Below, piece after piece: positions 13,735 to 57,108 of a DNA stretch of 64,000 bases. The number at the start of each line of letters is the position of its first letter. Position 1 is the stretch's first letter. The notes under the pieces were generated by a model. The model ran no database searches, was not told the DNA's origin, and saw only the letters and a program-made list of their open reading frames with translations. Origin of the DNA: Candidatus Bathyarchaeia archaeon (GTDB lineage: Archaea; Thermoproteota; Bathyarchaeia; Bathyarchaeales; Bathycorpusculaceae). Made by a program: the position numbers and the translations under genes. The DNA lies in NCBI GenBank assembly GCA_041447175.1, contig CP166960.1, positions 2,372,519-2,436,518 of the forward strand. The letters run 5' to 3'.

Positions 13735-14094
13735 GTGGTGGCACCCTTGCTGTTTGGACACAAAAGCAGCAAATTGCAGGTTGACTTAGGCGATTTAGAA
13801 GGGCAAAGCGAAAACCTAGCAACGTTTTTGAGGGCACATCTCAAGGTGGACTCTGTCCCCAAACAAAACAAGCTTCTTATCCAGCCAGAAACAACCGAAA
13901 CCGCAGAGCTGCAGCGTGTAGTGACCAAATTCATTTATCATCAAAACCTAAACGTTTCCCACTGGGTTTCGGTTGACGGGAAAACCGTTAAAATCAACAG
14001 GTTCAAAGGAGTCAAAAAACCCGACAAAACAGAGAAGCACGAAAAAAAGAAAAATGCACCCCACCAAACGCTCCCCCAAAGCTGGGGTCTATAG
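13735..14094 (+). CDS. Possible eL22-like ribosomal protein
   Basis: A 119-residue basic protein starting with GTG ('AAAGGAAAG' upstream). The segment 13-95 follows the eukaryotic ribosomal protein L22e pattern: 'LATFLRAHLKVDS' resembles the family's 'FEQFLQERIKVNG', 'NKLLIQPETTETAELQRVVTKFIYHQNLNVSHW' resembles its 'ITV...[20 protein letters not shown]', and 'VSVDGKTVKINRFKG' the closing strands. A Lys-rich tail ('KKPDKTEKHEKKKN') would suit rRNA contact. This assignment rests on my own alignment from memory. If wrong, it is an uncharacterised small basic protein. It is transcribed divergently from the CofE-like gene. Confidence 0.5.
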   Translation: MVAPLLFGHKSSKLQVDLGDLEGQSENLATFLRAHLKVDSVPKQNKLLIQPETTETAELQRVVTKFIYHQNLNVSHWVSVDGKTVKINRFKGVKKPDKTEKHEKKKNAPHQTLPQSWGL

Positions 14095-14165
14095 TTCCCC
14101 TTCTTGCTTCGCCCTGTCTGTGGCTATTGCTTTGTGTGTTGTGTCTGGCTCTTTAGCTTGGACGT

Positions 14166-14924
14166 TTACGTTATTAATGTGTGAACTAAAAGCAGCAAGG
14201 TGTAGATTCCCGCACCCGCCAAGAAGAGGGCTAAGCTTTGCTTTTTTAAGGCGGATGGGACCTCATTTTTCACTGAATCATACAATATTACCCCCGAGAT
14301 TAGGGCTAACAGCACGTAGGCTTCCGAGAGCCTTTCTGGGTAGAGCAGCGAAATCGCCCAGCCAATGAAGGGAATCACTGCTGCTACATAACGTCCTCCT
14401 TTTAGCTGCAATCGTTTGTAGTGTTCAACCATGGAGTCATTGGCGATAAACAAGTGCAAGGAAACCGCAAACGTGTAAAGCAAACCTCCAACAAGCCCTG
14501 CTTGAAACTCAAAAATCAACACAAAACTCAATATGGAATTAAGGAACGCAAAAATTGCAAAGTGAATAACAAAAAGGCTTTTTGTTCCTTGAACTTCTCG
14601 AAATTGCTGCTTAGTTGATGCCTGAATTTTTCCACGTGACTGCTTTGCCAAATGCTCCAAGACAAAGAAAATCAAAAAACCCACAAAGACCAAAAGAAAA
14701 ATCGCATCCTCATAGAAGGCAACCAGTTGACTGCCTCCGGTGATTTGCTTGAGGTATTCTCCAGCTTGTAGCAGGTTAGGTAGTAAGTCTAAGAAAACGT
14801 AGGCTGCGGCTATGCCTCCGAAAAAGGATAGTGTTTTTGCGCGGTAGTTTTCGGTGGCGTGGTGAAGTTTGTAGGCGAAAAGGTTAACGAGGGCAAACGC
14901 TGTGGCTGCAAGTAACGCGTACAA
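14166..14924 (-). CDS. Multi-pass membrane protein, ZIP-like
   Basis: A 252-residue protein with about eight hydrophobic segments, beginning 'MYALLAATAFALVNLFAYKLHH'. The arrangement resembles ZIP metal transporters: 'KTLSFFGGIAAAYVFLDLLPNLL', then 'FAVSLHLFIANDSMVEHY' at the place of the ZIP metal helix, 'YVAAVIPFIGWAISLLYP', and 'LALISGVILYDSVKNEVPS' resembling the 'AGAMLYVVLDELIPES' helix. The classic HNxxEG and HExPHE motifs are not present, so transport of a divalent metal is uncertain. It belongs to a widespread ZIP-like family of unknown function, and sits next to the tRNA-Glu island. Confidence 0.7.
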   Translation of the reverse strand: MYALLAATAFALVNLFAYKLHHATENYRAKTLSFFGGIAAAYVFLDLLPNLLQAGEYLKQITGGSQLVAFYEDAIFLLVFVGFLIFFVLEHLAKQSRGKIQASTKQQFREVQGTKSLFVIHFAIFAFLNSILSFVLIFEFQAGLVGGLLYTFAVSLHLFIANDSMVEHYKRLQLKGGRYVAAVIPFIGWAISLLYPERLSEAYVLLALISGVILYDSVKNEVPSALKKQSLALFLAGAGIYTLLLLVHTLIT

Positions 14925-15064: not shown

Positions 15065-15134
15065 TGGTGCTCCGGCTAGGCTTCGGAGCATAGTCTTTGG
15101 CTCGAAAGTCTAGACTACTAGACTGATTCGGAAG
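15065..15134 (-). pseudogene. Degenerate tRNA-Glu copy (possible attachment-site remnant)
   Basis: Aligned without gaps from the CCA end, 15065-15124 matches 17074-17133 of the intact tRNA-Glu at 46 of 60 positions. The 14 bases 15063-15076 are identical to 17072-17085. The anticodon loop CTTTCGA is kept, but the anticodon and T stems no longer pair, and the D arm is shortened by about eight bases, so it cannot fold as a tRNA. It has the same orientation as the intact tRNA and lies downstream of its 3' end, the geometry expected of the far end of an element integrated at a tRNA. Confidence 0.75.
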
Positions 15135-15257
15135 TAAAAAACCCTGAGGAAAAAGCAGGAGACAGGTCAACTATAAATCGTACAGAAGTTGAAACTGTAA
15201 TTTCCATATCAGGAAGCCTAAAACTGTTAATCATAACTTATTTAGTTCTTATTTCTT

Positions 15258-15434
15258 CTACCGAGTCCTGCTTCTTAATTCGACTGCTTTTATCAATTTT
15301 GGAGTTAAATCGTTTATTTCGCGGTACTGTTTTGCAGTGATTTTTGTGACATAACCGCAGGTTAGGCATGTTGCTTTTTCCCGGTTGGGACATAAGTCAA
15401 GGGTCCAGCATCCGCATTTTGGGCATTTTTCCAT
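15258..15434 (-). CDS. Small zinc-ribbon protein in the tRNA-Glu island
   Basis: A 58-residue protein with a compact zinc ribbon at its N-terminus, 'CPKCGCWTLDLCPNREKATCLTCGY', where the two C-x2-C pairs can bind one zinc. A short basic helical tail follows ('KLIKAVELRSRTR'). I chose ATG 15434 because GGAG lies eight bases upstream; GTG 15443 would add three residues. It is downstream of the deaminase fusion on the same strand, about 200 bases away. I do not recognise the family. It could bind nucleic acid or another protein of the island. Confidence 0.6.
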   Translation of the reverse strand: MEKCPKCGCWTLDLCPNREKATCLTCGYVTKITAKQYREINDLTPKLIKAVELRSRTR

Positions 15435-15631
15435 ATTTTCCACTCCACTTGTTAAGTATTGTTAGTTGAATTTTTAAGTATTTTCTAGAGTAGTATTAAT
15501 GAATCAATGATTCTTTAACGAGGAACAAACCGTCTGAAACCCTGAAAAACAAGATTAATTGACAAAAGTATTGTTTTTCATAAATGAAACTTGTGTACTT
15601 TAATCTGTTTTGTGTAAATCAGAAACGCCCC

Positions 15632-16924
15632 TTATTTTTTGGTCTGTGAATTGGCTTTTTTACTTTTTTTCATTTCACTTTCTTTTTCGCTGCGCCACGA
15701 ACCAAAAAGCTTGAAGTATGCTTTTGCCTTTACTCCTTCAAATTTGTCTGCTAAAATTTCTCTACCTTCCTCTTTTGCACTCTTTAATAGTTTTAGGGCT
15801 GCCGTATCGGGATACGATTCTACGTAGCAGAAACTCCCTATTCTTGAGTTAAGAATCTTCTCAGTGCAAGTTAAACATGGAAAAGTCGTAACGTAAAGCA
15901 TACACCCTGACAAATCCGCTTTCTGGGCGCTCAGCAAGGCTTTTTCCTCAGCATGCAAAGCCGTACATCTTCCCATTGCTCGGTCCTTTATGATTTCTTT
16001 GGCTAGGTTCTTTCCGCAGTGAGGACATTTATACGGAAATGTGAGTGGGGCCTCTAGCTTCTTAGTGCACAGCGGACAAGCTTTGAATTTTATCATTACG
16101 CTTTCGATATACTGGTCCCTGAAGCAATCTCCGAATTGTATATAGCACGGTTTGAGCGGATCACTATTCTCATTATATCCTATGCTCACAACATTCTCAT
16201 TCTGGTCAATTATAACTGCCCCAACTTGCCTCTTGAAGCAATTTGATCTAAGAGACGCTGCGTAAGCAATACTCATATACGCTTCTTTTTTGCTTGGTGA
16301 ACGAAGTTTTTCTTTTTGAAAAAGACTTATAGCATCTTTGAGTTTTCCTTCAAGTCTTTCGGCAAATTCGATCTGGGATTTCTTAGACTCGTTGTCATTC
16401 CTGATTAAGAAGTCCGCTTCGTCGACACACATAGCGACTTGTTGTCCATATTCAATATCATTTTGATTTTTGTCTCTCTGATCTAGCATCCTAAACTCGT
16501 CATGCGAAATGGTTTTGTTTTTGGGGTTCTTCTTTATTCGTTTCCATCTATCGTCTTCCGTACAGTCAACTGCAATTAGATAGAACTCCCGAAAAGTCTC
16601 TCTTAAAAACGCTACTTCTGACAAGTTTCTAATACTATCAAAAACAATGTTCTCGCTCTGTTTATTTTCTCCGACAACTTTTCTGTAAGTCTCTTCGGCT
16701 AAAATTTGAAGTGTTTTGGTTTTTCTCAGTTCGTTTCCAAATTCTTGCAGATCATATCGGTTTGCGTTTTCTGCTGCCTTTGGGTCATGTTTCGCTTCAT
16801 TATATTTTTCTCGTAAGGTTTCTGAAAGAGAATATGATTCGAATCCAAAAGACCTTCTTAGAATTCCAGTCACTGTGCTACAACCACTACCAAATGATCC
16901 CGTAATTCCAACTGCAATCTTCAT
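15632..16924 (-). CDS. P-loop kinase-like / deoxycytidylate deaminase fusion, candidate anti-phage dCTP deaminase
   Basis: A 430-residue two-domain protein. Residues 1-205 resemble a P-loop nucleotide kinase: 'GSFGSGCST' (9-17) stands at Walker A, with Cys where the lysine should be, then 'FDSIRN' (95-100) and 'LIAVDC'. Residues 215-400 are a cytidine-deaminase fold with HAE (324-326) and PCLTC (C350, C353) as the zinc/catalytic site. An extra CPLC/CPHC zinc knuckle (C283-C303) is inserted. This architecture matches anti-phage dCTP deaminases that destroy the dCTP pool on infection. ATG 16924 is preferred over TTG 16933, since the family starts at 'MKIAVGITG'. The gene is visibly A+T-rich (22 G+C in 16321-16380). 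A housekeeping dCMP deaminase is the alternative. Confidence 0.82.
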   Translation of the reverse strand: MKIAVGITGSFGSGCSTVTGILRRSFGFESYSLSETLREKYNEAKHDPKAAENANRYDLQEFGNELRKTKTLQILAEETYRKVVGENKQSENIVFDSIRNLSEVAFLRETFREFYLIAVDCTEDDRWKRIKKNPKNKTISHDEFRMLDQRDKNQNDIEYGQQVAMCVDEADFLIRNDNESKKSQIEFAERLEGKLKDAISLFQKEKLRSPSKKEAYMSIAYAASLRSNCFKRQVGAVIIDQNENVVSIGYNENSDPLKPCYIQFGDCFRDQYIESVMIKFKACPLCTKKLEAPLTFPYKCPHCGKNLAKEIIKDRAMGRCTALHAEEKALLSAQKADLSGCMLYVTTFPCLTCTEKILNSRIGSFCYVESYPDTAALKLLKSAKEEGREILADKFEGVKAKAYFKLFGSWRSEKESEMKKSKKANSQTKK

Positions 16925-16927
16925 ATA

Positions 16928-16942
16928 TTGCAATTATTGCAA
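16928..16942. promoter_or_regulatory. Near-palindrome at the deaminase start (operator candidate)
   Basis: TTGCAATTATTGCAA has two TTGCAA boxes (each self-complementary) separated by TTA. It lies between the likely TATA box and the ATG at 16924, covering the expected transcription start, where a bound repressor would block initiation. Confidence 0.5.
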
Positions 16943-16949
16943 AATAACT

Positions 16950-16957
16950 CTATATTA
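16950..16957 (-). promoter_or_regulatory. TATA box of the deaminase gene
   Basis: TAATATAG on the minus strand is centred about 30 bases upstream of ATG 16924. This predicts a leaderless or nearly leaderless transcript, common in archaea. Confidence 0.5.
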
Positions 16958-17025
16958 GTCTTGCCACATCATGTTCAATTCAAACTTAATGGTCAATAAA
17001 TAGTTCTGTGGAGTCTTTGTGACCC

Positions 17026-17073
17026 GTTTTAAAAAAAGTTAGTTTTCTTCAAACATTCCTGAAAGAATGTTTG
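17026..17073 (-). terminator. Stem-loop and T-tract immediately 3' of tRNA-Glu
   Basis: CAAACATTC and GAATGTTTG (17050-17058 and 17065-17073) form a perfect 9-bp stem with a 6-base loop beginning at the first base after CCA. A run of seven T follows on the minus strand at 17030-17036. It could end tRNA transcription or belong to the element's attachment region. Confidence 0.5.
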
Positions 17074-17151
17074 TGGTGCTCCGGCCGGGATTCGGACCCG
17101 GGTCTTCGGCTCGAAAGGCCGGAATACTTGACCGGACTATACTACCGGAGC
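17074..17151 (-). tRNA. tRNA-Glu (TTC anticodon)
   Basis: A complete cloverleaf on the minus strand. The acceptor is GCTCCGG/CCGGAGC with discriminator A and encoded CCA. The D stem GTAT pairs with GTAT, the anticodon loop CTTTCGA gives TTC, and the T arm is CCGGG-TCCGAAT-CCCGG. The anticodon stem CCGGC/GCCGA has one C-A mismatch at its base. No intron. A degenerate copy lies 1.9 kb downstream. Confidence 0.95.
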
Positions 17152-17579: not shown

Positions 17580-20348
17580 ATGAAAATCAAACAAAAAACA
17601 ATTCCTGTCCTTGCCCTGATATTGCTTCTAACCATCTCGGGCATGATGGCGGGCATACAAACAGCCACCGCGCATGACCCACCCTGGGAAATTCCAACGT
17701 ACACTTACATTTCTGCAAGTAACAACCCGATTGGTGCAGGACAAACGCTTGTCCTTGTCTTCTGGGCAAATGCTGTTCCAGTGACGGCTCAAGGGACGTA
17801 CGGAGACTTCTGGACTTTTGACGTGGATGTCACCAAACCTGACGGCTCAATTGAGACTTTGGGGCCATTTGACTCGGACCCCGTGGGTGGTTCTTATGCC
17901 CTGTACACCCCTGACCAATTGGGTGAGTACACTTTTGTGGCTAACTTCCTTGAACACACCATTACTGGTCAACCTCTGGATCCAAGGCTCAACACTACTG
18001 AGCAGTACAACTATGCTTACTGGGGAGACATTTACTTAGCCAGCCAAAGCAATCCTCTCACTGTTACGGTGCAACAGGAAGAAATCACCTCATGGAGTGA
18101 GACACCTCTACCAGACCGTTACTGGACAAGACCAGTTAACAACATAAACCGCGGCTGGAACGTGCTCTTGGGCAACTGGCTCTCAGGCGCAGCCCAAACA
18201 AACGGACCAACCACAAACTTCTGCTATGGCTCCGCTACAGAAAGCGCACACGTACTGTGGGCTACTCCTATGTGGTCTGGCGGAATCATGGACCAACGGT
18301 TCAACGACGAAGGCTTCAACGGAGGCCACTATGAAGGCATACAATTCAGTCCGCCGATTATCCTCGACGGTAAAATCTTCTACAACGTCAACACCTACCC
18401 CAAAGAGGGTTGGGTTGCACTTGACCTATACACTGGCGAGCAGCTATTCTTCCACAACACCACTGGACCCGTAACTGGTATGGGTGGAGGTTTTGACTCT
18501 GCGGGGTCGGTTGCGGGCGAATCTTTGGCTTTTGGACAAGTCTATGCGTACGAGTCGCCTAACCAGCACGGGGGCTTTCCCTACCTGTGGAGCACCACCT
18601 ACTACAACGCTACGACAGGGCAAATTCAGCCTAACACCTGGAGTATGTTTGACGGCTACACTGGTAACTACATCTGCAGCATAAACAACGTGCCCTCTTG
18701 GGCTGCAAGCGGAGGCTTCTTTGCCAGCAGCGCAGCAGTCTATGGGCAAGACGGAAGCATACTCCGATACTACATTGCAAATCTTGGCACACCTGCAGAC
18801 CCCAACCTTTACCTGCAAGTCTGGAACACCAGCCAAGCAATAATTTACCCAACCTACGGTAACACCAGCCAAGTCATCACGGCATCTAACGCTTACTGGA
18901 TGTGGAGACCCACCTTAAACTTCACTTTCGACGGCAACTATGGCTACACCCTAAACGTGTCAATACCCAACGTGCAAGGCAGCCTAATCACCGTACGCGA
19001 AGGCCAATACGTAATCGGTGGAGTTAACGGCAAAGTCAACGACACCTACACTCAGGAAGGCAACCTGTGGGCACTAAACCTTGATCCAACAAAAGGCGAA
19101 ATCGGCTCTTTGCTATGGAACATAACCTATCTACCACCAAAGAACGTGCCCGATTTAGCTGCAGGCACAGGCTTCTTTGCCTCTGGCGTCAGCTCCCCCA
19201 CCGTAGACCCTGAAGACGGCGTATTCATCTTTAACAACAGAATCCTGCTGACTTGGTACGTATACAACTTGACGACAGGGGAACCCATCTGGACAAGTGA
19301 ACCCGAAGGCGACTTCAACTTCTATGGCATGTACAGCAACATATACGAAGGAAAACTCCTCTCTACAGGCTACAGCGGCGTAGTAACCTGCTACAACATC
19401 ACCAACGGCGACGTCCTCTGGAAGTACACCGCTGAACAGGAAGGCTTTGAATCACCCTACGGCAACTTCCCCTTGTATATTGCTGCAATTGCTGACGGTA
19501 AAATCTTCACGGTTTCGGGTGAACACTCGCCTAGTCAGCCTTTGTGGCGCGGCTCCTACATCCGTTGCATTGACGCAGACACTGGTGAGGAGGTTTGGAA
19601 GATTCTCCATTGGGGTGCTGGCATCGGCGGAGCACACCTGACTGGTGTATGCGTTTACATGGCAGACAGCTACGTGGTGGGGCTTAACCTCTACGACAAC
19701 CAGATTTACTGTTACGGCAAAGGTTCCAGTGCGACCTCTGTTAACGTGCAAAACGATGTTGTCAGCTTAGGCAGCAGCGTGCTCATCACAGGTACAGTTA
19801 CTGACGTGTCGCCTGGAGCCAAGAACAAGATTGCCAGCGGCGAATTTACTACTGTTCCCGCAGTTTCTGACGAAAGCCAAGAAGACTGGATGGAGTACAT
19901 CTACGCACAGCAGGCTAAACCCAAAGACGCTACTGGTGTTCCAGTGTCTTTGTACACTTTAGACCCTAACGGCAACGATATCCATATAGCAGACGTAATC
20001 AGCGACGCCAGCGGCGGCTTCAAATACCTATGGACCCCTGATGTCCCCGGAGAATACACGGTTACAGCAACGTTTTGCGGCTCCGCGGCATACTATGGCT
20101 CAGAGGCAACAACATACGTCGGCGTAACTCCCGCATCTGCCGCCCCACTCGTCACCCCAACACCAACAATTCCAGGACAAACGACACCGCCAACTTCAAC
20201 TCCAACACAACCCGTTTCCCCCTCACCTAGTGAGGCGCCCCAGCCAACAAGTGACGGTGAACCTACAACAACCTACATAGCCATTGGTGTAGCCGTGGTC
20301 ATAATCGTTGCGTTAGTAGCGGTTCTGGTTCTGCGGCGCCGTAAATAA
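17580..20348 (+). CDS. Surface-anchored PQQ-like beta-propeller protein (paralogue 1 of 3)
   Basis: A 922-residue exported protein: signal peptide 1-31, an Ig-like N-terminal domain ('TYTYISASNNPIGAGQTLVLVFW'), and a long PQQ/BamB-like beta-propeller with repeated blades such as 'CYNITNGDVLWKYTAE' and 'CIDADTGEEVWKILHWG'. Then comes 'IYCYGKGSSATSVNVQNDVVSLGSSVLITGTVTD', a second Ig-like domain, a Thr/Pro-rich stalk (about 855-895) and a C-terminal membrane helix followed by RRRK. It should sit outside the cell, tethered by the last helix, perhaps as an S-layer-associated or binding protein. Ligand unknown; no PQQ enzyme residues were identified. Start ATG with 'TTAGGAGAG' upstream. Paralogues lie at 31821 and 34703. 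Confidence 0.85.
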   Translation: MKIKQKTIPVLALILLLTISGMMAGIQTATAHDPPWEIPTYTYISASNNPIGAGQTLVLVFWANAVPVTAQGTYGDFWTFDVDVTKPDGSIETLGPFDSDPVGGSYALYTPDQLGEYTFVANFLEHTITGQPLDPRLNTTEQYNYAYWGDIYLASQSNPLTVTVQQEEITSWSETPLPDRYWTRPVNNINRGWNVLLGNWLSGAAQTNGPTTNFCYGSATESAHVLWATPMWSGGIMDQRFNDEGFNGGHYEGIQFSPPIILDGKIFYNVNTYPKEGWVALDLYTGEQLFFHNTTGPVTGMGGGFDSAGSVAGESLAFGQVYAYESPNQHGGFPYLWSTTYYNATTGQIQPNTWSMFDGYTGNYICSINNVPSWAASGGFFASSAAVYGQDGSILRYYIANLGTPADPNLYLQVWNTSQAIIYPTYGNTSQVITASNAYWMWRPTLNFTFDGNYGYTLNVSIPNVQGSLITVREGQYVIGGVNGKVNDTYTQEGNLWALNLDPTKGEIGSLLWNITYLPPKNVPDLAAGTGFFASGVSSPTVDPEDGVFIFNNRILLTWYVYNLTTGEPIWTSEPEGDFNFYGMYSNIYEGKLLSTGYSGVVTCYNITNGDVLWKYTAEQEGFESPYGNFPLYIAAIADGKIFTVSGEHSPSQPLWRGSYIRCIDADTGEEVWKILHWGAGIGGAHLTGVCVYMADSYVVGLNLYDNQIYCYGKGSSATSVNVQNDVVSLGSSVLITGTVTDVSPGAKNKIASGEFTTVPAVSDESQEDWMEYIYAQQAKPKDATGVPVSLYTLDPNGNDIHIADVISDASGGFKYLWTPDVPGEYTVTATFCGSAAYYGSEATTYVGVTPASAAPLVTPTPTIPGQTTPPTSTPTQPVSPSPSEAPQPTSDGEPTTTYIAIGVAVVIIVALVAVLVLRRRK

Positions 20349-20512: not shown

Positions 20513-21037
20513 TCATTTGGGTGCTTCTTTTTCCTTAAACAGAAACCCTGTTATCTGCTCAACCAACTTGCTTGTTGACTGCAGTTTATCTTCCACGTTG
20601 ATTACGCGTTTTTCTAAGTCGTTGGATATGATTTTGCCTTCAATGCGGTTGGCGGAGCGGAACATAAGCATCACCCTGTAGACGTCAGTTATGGCTTTTT
20701 CCTGCTCTTCGGCTGATGCAGGCTTAATCCCTGCGCAAATTAAAAGTAAATCGACATAGTGTTCTTTGATTTTCAGTTCCTGATTTACAGAGGGATCCGT
20801 GGGGAAACCAATTGCCAACGGGTTTTTTTTGCTAAGTTCCGCGGCTGTGGGAAAATGAATAATGATGTCTCCTCTTATCCAGGCGGAAACAAATTCGGTT
20901 ACGGTGCGGCGCACATCTTTGGGCGAAAACAACGCGGCGGAGCCTTGACTTTGCTTGCTTTTGCGGATTTTTACTCTAATGATTTTATTTTTTTCCACGT
21001 TTTCTATGCCTTTTTTTTCCACTTTATGCGCCCCCAC
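20513..21037 (-). CDS. Hypothetical soluble protein downstream of the HD phosphohydrolase
   Basis: A 174-residue charged protein, GTG start. The N-terminus is very basic ('KNKIIRVKIRKSKQSQG'). The central part 'PKDVRRTVTEFVSAWIRGDIIIHFPTAAELSKKNP' and 'KEHYVDLLLICAGIKPASAEEQEKAITDVYRVMLMFRSANRIEGKI' look helical, and the C-terminus 'RVINVEDKLQSTSKLVEQITGFLFK' may be a coiled coil. No known motif. It follows the HD-domain gene by about 70 bases on the same strand and is probably co-transcribed, so a link to nucleotide metabolism is possible but unproven. Confidence 0.65.
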   Translation of the reverse strand: MGAHKVEKKGIENVEKNKIIRVKIRKSKQSQGSAALFSPKDVRRTVTEFVSAWIRGDIIIHFPTAAELSKKNPLAIGFPTDPSVNQELKIKEHYVDLLLICAGIKPASAEEQEKAITDVYRVMLMFRSANRIEGKIISNDLEKRVINVEDKLQSTSKLVEQITGFLFKEKEAPK

Positions 21038-49711: not shown

Positions 49712-51163
49712 ATGAAAAATTTTTTCTTAATTGTTCTCCTCGTGTTTTCCCTAGTTACCTTCGCCGTTTCAACACACTTTTTACCCACAGCCGAAGCTGA
49801 GAGTTCTCAAATGTTTTTCACCGATGACTTCGAAGGTAACACCATAGATCCAGCGAAATGGATTGTCCAAGAAAACCTAAACATCTCCAGCTTCCCAGCT
49901 TACGGCGGGAGCATAAAAGTAAACAACAGTTACGTGTCTCTTGCAAGCAACGGTTCAAGCTTTCCTATTATAACCAGCGCTCTTAACCCATTTCCAACAA
50001 CTGGAGATTTTGCTTTAGAATTCGACATAACCTACGACCAAGTCAGTGGCTGGGGCAGCGGCTTGTGGGTTTCCCATGGCTCATTCGAGCCTGTCTCAAA
50101 AGAAACGGTGTATGCAAACATTTTGCAGGTTTGGGCTGATACTAAAATCGGCTTTAATGTCTTCTTCTTCGAAAACGTAACCTACAAACAGGACTTATAT
50201 TGGAGTCCATTTGGCTACGACACGAAGCCACTTACGATAAGATTAGATTTATCCCACGGCGTCTACAGTCTCTATCTGAATGGCTCTCTGATCGCAACTC
50301 ATGAGTCAACCTTACGACCTGACACAATAGGTTTTGGTCATCCACCTGCCTTTTGGATTCCTAAAGCTATTGGCAACTCTTTGATTCCTGAATCTGTTAG
50401 CACCTCTTGGTCTTCCTTTAAAATTGGGTCGGTGAGAGTTTTGCCTCCGTCCCAGCTTTCAATCTCTAGTGATGTATCGGCAACAAGTGTCGGCAACAAA
50501 ATCAACATAGAGGGCGTGTTGACTAATCCTGAAAACCAGCCTATAAGTGGCGCGATGATAGTGGTGTCCTGTCTCATACCTGACGTGGCAGGTTATGTGC
50601 CCGTAACTACCTCAACAACTGACCTTCAAGGTGGTTACTCTGCAACTTGGATGCCCACCGCCACAGGCGCCTTCACAATTAAAGCTTCATGGTCAGGTGA
50701 TGCAGCGTATGCAGGGACCTTTGACGTTAAGAACGTTAGCGTCGTCCAAGGGGTCGGTGAAACTTTGTTCTTGGCGGAATCCAATTCCACTCTCTCGTCG
50801 CTGTCTTTCAACTCAACTTCAAACGAGATAGCTTTCACGGTAAGCGGCTCTTCAGGAACCAGCGGGTACGTAAGATTCGTAATCTCAAAATCAATTATCG
50901 AGAACATGACTGCCTTTGGCGTGTTTATTGACGGAGTGCAGGTTGACTGCAATGTTTCTTCAGCAGGTGATGCGTGGCAACTGTATTTTACTTACCCCCA
51001 TTCTACGCATGCCGTAACAATTAAGATGCCTGTCTCTTCTGTCCCCGAGTTCCAAGTTTGGGTACTTTTTCTGCTGTTTTCAGTTTGCACGATATCCTTT
51101 CTCCTTTATGGCAGAAAAAATGGCGGAAAAGTCGGCTTACCATCTGAGGGGAGCCTTTTTTGA
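49712..51163 (+). CDS. Secreted protein with lectin-like and Ig-like domains, PEF-type C-terminal anchor
   Basis: A 483-residue exported protein: signal peptide 1-29, then a jelly-roll domain (about 35-245, 'FFTDDFEGNTIDPAKWIV', 'FALEFDITYDQVSGWGSGLWVS', 'YLNGSLIATHES') of the concanavalin/glycan-binding kind. An Ig-like domain follows ('SAMISVVVSCLIP'-like core, 'GYSATWMPTATGAFTIKASWSGDAAY'), then another beta region. The C-terminus 'VPEFQVWVLFLLFSVCTISFLLYGRKNGGK' has the Pro-Glu-Phe, Trp and helix pattern seen in archaeal surface anchors. It may bind or display surface glycans made by the neighbouring cluster. Catalytic residues not identified. Confidence 0.8.
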   Translation: MKNFFLIVLLVFSLVTFAVSTHFLPTAEAESSQMFFTDDFEGNTIDPAKWIVQENLNISSFPAYGGSIKVNNSYVSLASNGSSFPIITSALNPFPTTGDFALEFDITYDQVSGWGSGLWVSHGSFEPVSKETVYANILQVWADTKIGFNVFFFENVTYKQDLYWSPFGYDTKPLTIRLDLSHGVYSLYLNGSLIATHESTLRPDTIGFGHPPAFWIPKAIGNSLIPESVSTSWSSFKIGSVRVLPPSQLSISSDVSATSVGNKINIEGVLTNPENQPISGAMIVVSCLIPDVAGYVPVTTSTTDLQGGYSATWMPTATGAFTIKASWSGDAAYAGTFDVKNVSVVQGVGETLFLAESNSTLSSLSFNSTSNEIAFTVSGSSGTSGYVRFVISKSIIENMTAFGVFIDGVQVDCNVSSAGDAWQLYFTYPHSTHAVTIKMPVSSVPEFQVWVLFLLFSVCTISFLLYGRKNGGKVGLPSEGSLF

Positions 51164-51218
51164 GCGGTAACGGGCTGTTCAATCGAAATTCTTATTTCGG
51201 CAAACAACCTTATCGAAT

Positions 51219-51713
51219 ATGTACTTTGCTGAAACAATATGCGGGGCGCATTGTTTTCGAATGATAATTAATTCCAAGGTTCATCCTTCAGTTAAAATTT
51301 GGCATCCTGAACTTGTAAACATATACGACTCATACATTGGTGAAAATACGAAAGTGGCAAGTTTCGTTGAGATCGGTGGTGCTCGAATCGGCAAATGGTG
51401 CAAAATCGAAGCTTTCTCCTTTATACCCCCGGGCACGGTGATTGAGGATTACGTTTTTGTTGGTCCTCATGTAATAATAACAAATGACCGTTATCCAGAC
51501 GCGAAAAGGGACACTTGGAACTCTGAGCCTGTCACAATCAAGAGGGGAGCCAGCATCGGTGCTGGTAGTGTAATTGTGGCTGGGGTGACAATCGGCGAGA
51601 ATGCGTTAGTTGGTGCGGGGAGCGTTGTTTCTCGTGATGTTTCTGGTGAGACCATTGTTTACGGAGAAAAAGCGTATCCACGCGGCAAAATAAGATGCGA
51701 CGCTGAGTTGTGA
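51219..51713 (+). CDS. Left-handed beta-helix (hexapeptide) acyltransferase
   Basis: A protein of up to 164 residues with hexapeptide repeats: 'IYDSYIGENTKVASFVEIGGARIGKWCKIEAFSFIPPGTVIEDYVFVGPHVIITNDRYP' then 'IKRGASIGAGSVIVAGVTIGENALVGAGSVVSRDV'. The 'GPHVIITND' loop fits sugar N- or O-acetyltransferases of the WbbJ/WlbB type that use acetyl-CoA. ATG 51219 gives the longest frame; ATG 51261 ('MIINSKVHPSVKIW') is the more typical family start. It would acetylate a sugar nucleotide or glycan. Four bases upstream of the GT2 gene, so same transcript. Confidence 0.85.
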   Translation: MYFAETICGAHCFRMIINSKVHPSVKIWHPELVNIYDSYIGENTKVASFVEIGGARIGKWCKIEAFSFIPPGTVIEDYVFVGPHVIITNDRYPDAKRDTWNSEPVTIKRGASIGAGSVIVAGVTIGENALVGAGSVVSRDVSGETIVYGEKAYPRGKIRCDAEL

Positions 51714-51717
51714 GCGG

Positions 51718-52518
51718 ATGACTGAGCCCCTGGTAAGTTTAGTTGTTGCCACGTATAATTACGGCAGATATTTGCCAGAAACTATTGAAAGCATTCTGAA
51801 ACAATCCTACAAAAACCTCGAAATCATAGTTGTAGACGACGGTTCTACTGATAACACAAGACAAGTGGTGAAGCAGTATCCCGTCAGATACATCTACCAA
51901 GAAAATCATGGGCCTTCTTACGCGTTTAATGTTGGTATAAGAATTTCCCATGGAAGGTTCTACATAACTCCTGGTGCCGATGACAAATTACATCCTGATT
52001 ATGTGGCGCTTTGCGTTAAAGAAATGCTCAAAAATGACAGTGTAGGCTTCGTTTGGACGGGTGCACAGGAATTTGGTTTAACATATGAACTGAGGTCACC
52101 TAATCCGCTACATAATACCTTAAGTATTTACCGAGGGCCTGGAGGGCAACTTGGCGCTGCGCTGTTTCGTCGGAAAGCCTTTGAAGATGTGGGAGGCTAC
52201 GATGAAACTTTGACAGTTTATGAAGATTGGGATATAGCCATCAGGATGCTTAAACGGGGCTGGAAAGGTTGTCCCATAATGTTGCCTCTTTATTTTTGGC
52301 GTAGACATGGCGTGAGTCGTAATACGCGAGCTGAAAGAGACAAGCTTCTTAAAGTGTTGGAAAAAAAATATCCCCACTTGAAACTTTACAATAGACTTGC
52401 TCGATTTCAGGATTTTTTTGTGCTTTGCTTCTCAGACCCCGGCGAGTTATGTAATCGTTTGTTGCAAAAATTCCGAAAGACACAATCAAAATTGAAGCAA
52501 TACTCTCTCGGTCGATGA
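51718..52518 (+). CDS. Family 2 glycosyltransferase
   Basis: A 266-residue GT-A enzyme: 'VSLVVATYNYGRYLPETIESILKQSYKNLEIIVVDDGSTDNTRQVVKQY' is the GT2 nucleotide-sugar fold, 'FYITPGADDKLHPDY' the metal DxD-like region (reads ADD), and 'DETLTVYEDWDIAIRMLKRGW' the acceptor/ED-type catalytic motif. A short C-terminal tail follows ('LLKVLEKKYPHLKLYNRLARF'). It transfers a sugar from a nucleotide donor to a lipid-linked or protein glycan. The preceding acyltransferase gene is four bases away. Which sugar is unknown. Confidence 0.9.
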   Translation: MTEPLVSLVVATYNYGRYLPETIESILKQSYKNLEIIVVDDGSTDNTRQVVKQYPVRYIYQENHGPSYAFNVGIRISHGRFYITPGADDKLHPDYVALCVKEMLKNDSVGFVWTGAQEFGLTYELRSPNPLHNTLSIYRGPGGQLGAALFRRKAFEDVGGYDETLTVYEDWDIAIRMLKRGWKGCPIMLPLYFWRRHGVSRNTRAERDKLLKVLEKKYPHLKLYNRLARFQDFFVLCFSDPGELCNRLLQKFRKTQSKLKQYSLGR

Positions 52519-57030: not shown

Positions 57031-57108
57031 GGGCCGATCGTCTAGCCTGGTTAGGACGTTGGCTTTACGAGCCAAAGGTCGCCGGTCCGAATCCGGCTCG
57101 GCCCACCA
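57031..57108 (+). tRNA. tRNA-Val (TAC anticodon)
   Basis: A complete tRNA: acceptor GGGCCGA/TCGGCCC, discriminator A, encoded CCA, D arm with the TGG of its loop, anticodon stem TTGGC/GCCAA with loop TTTACGA giving TAC, and T arm GCCGG-TCCGAAT-CCGGC. No intron. The convergent glycoside-hydrolase gene stops only eight bases downstream. Confidence 0.95.

Follow-up and report, generated by a model that had tools for sequence, protein, structure and literature searches.

The tRNA-Glu(TTC) locus and its decayed copy

The DNA analysed here, in the following called the window, is a stretch of 64,000 nucleotides (G000:C1:2372519-2436518) within the 2.73-Mb single-contig genome of a Bathyarchaeia archaeon. 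It harbours an intact tRNA-Glu(TTC) gene with an encoded CCA on the reverse strand (17074-17151), called by ARAGORN and matching Rfam RF00005 with 57.6 bits, which would represent the integration target (attL side) of the DNA that follows it. Past its 3' end, and likewise on the reverse strand, lie a gene for a fusion of a P-loop kinase-like domain with a cytidine/dCMP deaminase domain (15632-16924), a candidate antiviral deaminase of dC nucleotides; a reading frame from the list of open reading frames (ORFs) for a small zinc-ribbon protein of 58-61 amino acids, a further cargo of this islet (15258-15443); and a decayed copy of tRNA positions 20-78 including the CCA (15065-15123), which resembles a remnant attachment site (attR). 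Still further out follow a ZIP-like membrane protein gene on the reverse strand (14166-14924; weak match to Pfam PF02535) and, 2.98 kb from tRNA-Glu, a conserved flank gene for a protein of 119 amino acids on the forward strand (13735-14094), at whose 3' end the foreign DNA reaches its outer limit. Directly after the CCA of tRNA-Glu stands a perfect inverted repeat, CAAACATTC-TTTCAG-GAATGTTTG (17050-17073, assigned to neither strand), with a stem of 9 bp; it is present as a single copy in the genome and is possibly a terminator or a protein site.

The stretch 15251-17000 has a GC content of 33-42% against about 50% in most flanks, in agreement with the original prediction of an A+T-rich interior. 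No integrase was recognised among the ORFs of the insert, either in the ORF list or with Pfam, and for this reason we do not claim the insert as an autonomous element. The 5' side of tRNA-Glu is occupied by a gene for a secreted PQQ-like/beta-propeller protein of 922 amino acids (17580-20348), which lies between the tRNA and the gene at 20513. Since this gene, too, has no match in the compared loci, accessory DNA borders the tRNA on its 5' as well as its 3' side; most congeners possess just ~100-200 bp in its place. Large expansions of PQQ genes have been reported from Bathy-6 (PMC11697101). An HD-domain gene is syntenic with tRNA-Glu(TTC) in the relatives and in most of the named Bathyarchaeota loci examined; all named genomes recovered through this gene belong to Candidatus Bathyarchaeota, which places the host among the Bathyarchaeia.

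The decayed copy lies in the same orientation as tRNA-Glu(TTC), 1.95 kb past the tRNA 3' end, and is identical to it at 46 of 59 positions in a local alignment, the final 12 nucleotides including the CCA being exact. The hand count of 46 of 60 ungapped matches for 15065-15124 was reproduced, and the runner-up position on the same strand of the 64 kb reaches 29/60, i.e. chance level, while the best match on the opposite strand (33/60) is tRNA-Val. The local alignment score is 53; when the 3-kb stretch downstream was shuffled 200 times, the top score was 27. A BLAST search of the whole genome with tRNA-Glu as query returned six matches, which are the tRNA itself, the remnant (E = 3.5e-7) and four others that look like tRNA genes by their length or by their recurrence in relatives. 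The remnant retains the anticodon TTC and scores 69 against the TTC isoacceptor and 57 against the CTC isoacceptor; an Rfam search recovered nothing there at E <= 1, so that it is not a working tRNA. Neither the tRNA sequence 5' of position 20 (shuffle fraction 0.85) nor any likeness between the flanks beyond the two CCA ends (shuffle fraction 0.21) was found at the remnant, which consequently represents a partial 3' copy and not a segmental duplication. tRNA-Val (57031-57108) was considered as a further target within the window, but no noteworthy remnant accompanies it.

The same tRNA site in related genomes

The arrangement had been read as the trace of tRNA-targeted insertion, and both empty sites and parallel insertions in relatives support this reading. 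In three congeners (G002, G004 and G006) tRNA-Glu is separated by only 36-45 nt from the convergent ortholog of the conserved gene at 13735-14094, and in G006 the subsequent genes match those of the window in the same order as well. A fourth congener, G003, carries a different islet of 0.85 kb with an unrelated ORF of 110 amino acids, which ends in its own tRNA-Glu remnant of 47 nt (38/47 identical), 58 nt before the ortholog of the conserved gene, the whole distance from the tRNA to this gene being ~0.9 kb; this layout is the anatomy expected for a tRNA insertion with a displaced 3' end. In G001 (L067), a segment of ~1 kb at the site contains an ORF of 241 amino acids (0.12-0.85 kb after tRNA-Glu) that is DnaQ/PolB-exonuclease-like by a weak Pfam match, and no remnant was detectable at this segment.

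The absence of a visible integrase, noted in the original prediction, holds for the insert, yet the more distant relative G019 does possess an integrase gene at this tRNA. There, an ORF for a tyrosine recombinase of 391 amino acids (PF00589, 4.6e-21; PHROG integrase, 1e-20) starts 11 nt after the CCA of tRNA-Glu. A matching half-site (35/38, with no mismatch to the tRNA in the final 25 nt) is situated on another contig and is followed by 61 nt and the SDR gene which in G007 comes immediately after the tRNA. The element in G019 spans two contigs (L074:1-2373 and L082:1-1374) and encodes a NikA-like protein besides the recombinase.

The copies in the window, G003 and G019 begin at tRNA positions 20, 32 and 41, respectively, and all extend to the CCA. 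Their lengths of 38-59 nt fit those of archaeal att sites, which in crenarchaea extend over 29-69 bp (median 45) according to data cited in PMC6563490, and we count this fit in favour of tRNA-targeted integration. To judge from the comparison, the insertions in the relatives are independent, one of them still retaining its integrase. Because empty sites, the G003 islet and the G019 recombinase all concern the same 3' end, tRNA-Glu(TTC) is a recurrent integration site; we found no description of it as such in the literature consulted. One further candidate remnant (L119) was rejected, as it proved to be a separate tRNA gene.

Family, sequence and predicted structure of the deaminase

The deaminase gene is intact and encodes 430 amino acids from an ATG (16924), most likely the start, or 433 from a TTG (16933). 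Its GC content at third codon positions (GC3, about 0.365) is the lowest among the 48 ORFs of at least 150 amino acids in the window, for which the median is 0.565. Another low-GC3 cluster is located at 49712-52518, with genes for a secreted protein, a hexapeptide acyltransferase-like and a glycosyltransferase-like protein, and is probably a surface-glycan segment.

The protein matches the PADLOC dCTPase profile over residues 4-422 (E = 6.6e-93) and contains the Pfam domains PF00383 (1.6e-17) and PF13238 (3.9e-10), and it displays the P-loop domain fused to a deaminase with HAE and PCxxC motifs by which the PADLOC superfamily is recognised. Against NF041025, the NCBIfam model of the anti-phage dCTP deaminase, it aligns at positions 6-414 with 242 bits (E = 1.1e-71), which is below the curated cut-off of 400 bits, so that it should not be filed in this equivalog. 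The proposal of a candidate anti-phage deaminase is supported at the level of the superfamily, but the protein is divergent from the characterised anti-phage dCTP/dCMP deaminases and not one of their canonical members. The catalytic residues H324-A-E326 and P349-C350-x-x-C353 (numbered from the ATG) are invariant in an alignment of 23 sequences, which also shows that the protein has neither a GGLY motif nor a C-terminal tail. Motif and C-terminal extension are common but not universal in the PADLOC dCTPase superfamily, and the pattern GG[LV][YF] is present in most, not all, of 37 viral homologs. The protein possesses in addition a Cys-knuckle insert (CPLC...CPHC), which a pattern search did not find in the 37 viral homologs.

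In an AlphaFold model (pLDDT 80.7, with no confident prediction for the region of the insert), the predicted N-terminal domain resembles archaeal adenylate-kinase-related proteins (3lw7) and the C-terminal domain dCMP deaminases (2w4l). The N-terminal domain shares fold and sequence with the archaeal UPF0200/adenylate-kinase-related proteins (SSO1041; 3h0k, 3lw7; Foldseek E = 1.6e-9), which in contrast to the fused domain of the window are stand-alone, and in its P-loop GSGCST replaces GxGKS. While this domain is about equally near to the UPF0200-type kinases and to the anti-phage fusions, the deaminase domain scores up to 93 bits against the anti-phage fusions and up to 44 bits against the dCMP deaminase of the genus itself. 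A local fusion of a host kinase and a host dCMP deaminase was hence rejected, for the deaminase half only. An Rfam match to sR17 inside the gene (E = 0.63) is a chance match.

The best-known relative is AvcD of the AvcID system (NF041025; PADLOC dCTPase), which upon infection turns dCTP and dCMP into dU forms and is restrained by the AvcI RNA (PMC10511110). Shared are the N-terminal P-loop kinase-like domain and the zinc-dependent deaminase domain with HAE and PCxxC, and the two align along almost their entire length with 27-29% identity; against plasmid-borne bacterial anti-phage deaminases, identity amounts to 27-28% over 95%. By homology, the protein of the window most likely performs the same chemistry. 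In contrast to the AvcD family, with about 500-550 amino acids, its 430 residues include neither an N-terminal extension nor GGLY motif and C-terminal tail, and the CPLC...CPHC insert is extra. No Rfam match to an AvcI-like RNA was obtained near the gene, and the gap from the tRNA to the ATG comprises just 149 nt against ~171 nt for a minimal AvcI (PMC10511110); control of the enzyme would for these reasons differ from that of AvcD or be unrecognised.

Full-length relatives of the deaminase are rare: counting that of the window, they occur within the class in two of 257 genomes and within the phylum in three of 398, and none exists elsewhere in the genus. Scans of genome contigs and viral contigs with the single sequence did not find relatives, unlike the alignment-based scan from which the viral homologs were obtained. 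In the other carrier within the family (G123), the gene lies beside a dUTPase and a DCD-like gene; an IS91-type transposase and an MCM protein are encoded nearby, and the contig looks mobile.

Origin of the insert and role of the deaminase

Taken together, the locus is quite probably the captured remnant of at least one integrative element for which the tRNA-Glu(TTC) 3' end served as attachment site, and its deaminase is probably antiviral. A tyrosine recombinase would have joined the tRNA 3' part borne by the element to the chromosomal tRNA, thereby restoring it, and would have displaced the old 3' part to the opposite end of the insert; the decaying copy at 15065-15123 would be this part. 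Subsequent loss of the integrase, together with the bulk of the element, would have locked in the zinc-ribbon gene and the intact P-loop/deaminase fusion as cargo. The foreign DNA abuts the intact tRNA 3' end and is missing from the empty sites of G002, G004 and G006, and the zinc-ribbon protein has no counterpart in six congeneric genomes. As in archaeal tRNA-integrated elements (Thaumarchaeota iMGEs, PMC6563490; archaeal tyrosine recombinases, PMC8371274), a tRNA 3' end is the target, the 3' direct repeat is of similar length, the cargo is variable and empty sites exist in relatives. Unlike these, the insert measures only about 2-3 kb, contains no integrase, and its att site is decayed and internal; captured elements can arise through integrase loss or att-site mutation (PMC8371274). 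The suggestion of a passenger segment or remnant without an integrase of its own is supported by the comparison with relatives. We count against our explanation the missing integrase, the internal position of the remnant without a second one, the very small islet, and a full-length decayed tRNA-Glu copy in another genome of the class (see below).

The position of the remnant calls for one refinement. The original prediction described an island bounded by tRNA-Glu and its copy; the copy is real, yet only the 1.95 kb next to the tRNA lie within this boundary, and a further 0.97 kb with the ZIP-like gene precedes the ancestral flank gene. As this gene lies beyond the remnant and is not found at the locus in any relative examined (its relatives occupy other genomic places, in 2 of 40 genomes), species-specific DNA reaches ~14094, and 15065 is an internal boundary rather than the outer edge. 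With the ZIP-like gene outside the remnant, at least two insertion events at the locus are likely. Two elements could have entered in series at the same tRNA, the outer and older one bringing the ZIP-like gene and the inner one the deaminase and the zinc ribbon, with 15065 as their junction; this would be the likeliest reading of an internal remnant, and we give it somewhat less than an even chance. The newest insert is expected nearest to the tRNA, and the deaminase gene is indeed more atypical than the ZIP-like gene (GC3 0.364 vs. 0.482). On the other hand, no second tRNA remnant was found at the outer border (14095-14165), and the ZIP-like gene could have come otherwise.

A defence role of the deaminase is suggested by its family, its genomic position and its patchy distribution: acting during virus infection, it would probably starve viral DNA synthesis of dC nucleotides through deamination of dCTP and dCMP. 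Against this count the score below the NCBIfam cut-off and the missing GGLY motif and C-terminal tail. Alternatively, the protein could be a housekeeping enzyme or one that serves its element, e.g. by supplying dTTP for a virus or plasmid. Related deaminase domains, annotated as dCMP deaminases, are encoded by many phages, and the neighbourhood of the G123 homolog would suit such a role, but the two-domain layout and the best-matching profile are those of the anti-phage family, and the host genome is already equipped with a separate dCMP deaminase of its own; we regard this alternative as unlikely.

It is less plausible still that the remnant is a decayed tandem pseudogene of tRNA-Glu and that deaminase and zinc ribbon entered the intergenic space by ordinary recombination: the missing integrase, the internal remnant and the full-length decayed copy 0.84 kb downstream of an intact tRNA-Glu in L122 (FK_Sedi_B_Bin.165, Bathyarchaeota; L122:12849-12923), which shows that entire tRNA genes are duplicated in the class as well, would agree with it, but the copies in the window, G003 and G019 start at different positions and all reach the CCA, like att sites, flanks are unmatched, the G003 copy sits at the empty-site junction, and G019 has an integrase at the site.

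As a tRNA islet that was captured and holds a divergent enzyme of antiviral type, the locus would be an ordinary kind of feature with good comparative support. It offers a well-bounded case of mobile DNA turnover at one tRNA gene, documented by parallel insertions as well as empty sites, within an archaeal class that is uncultured and from which mobile elements have barely been described, and a rare, divergent archaeal version of what may be a nucleotide-depletion defence enzyme, which could be tested in a laboratory host. A bolder proposal, which we consider rather doubtful, is that the deaminase founds an archaeal subfamily in which the Cys-knuckle insert replaces GGLY, the tail is lost, and regulation (no AvcI RNA) and perhaps substrate are unlike those of AvcD, and that the tRNA-Glu(TTC) gene serves the Bathyarchaeia as a permanent hotspot for the turnover of small antiviral cargos. 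Finally, one end of a 5474-bp contig in G002 (C10; L083) carries an integrase ORF and the other the initial 21 nt of tRNA-Glu (L083:32-52); the contig may represent an element whose attachment site is 5'-tRNA sequence.
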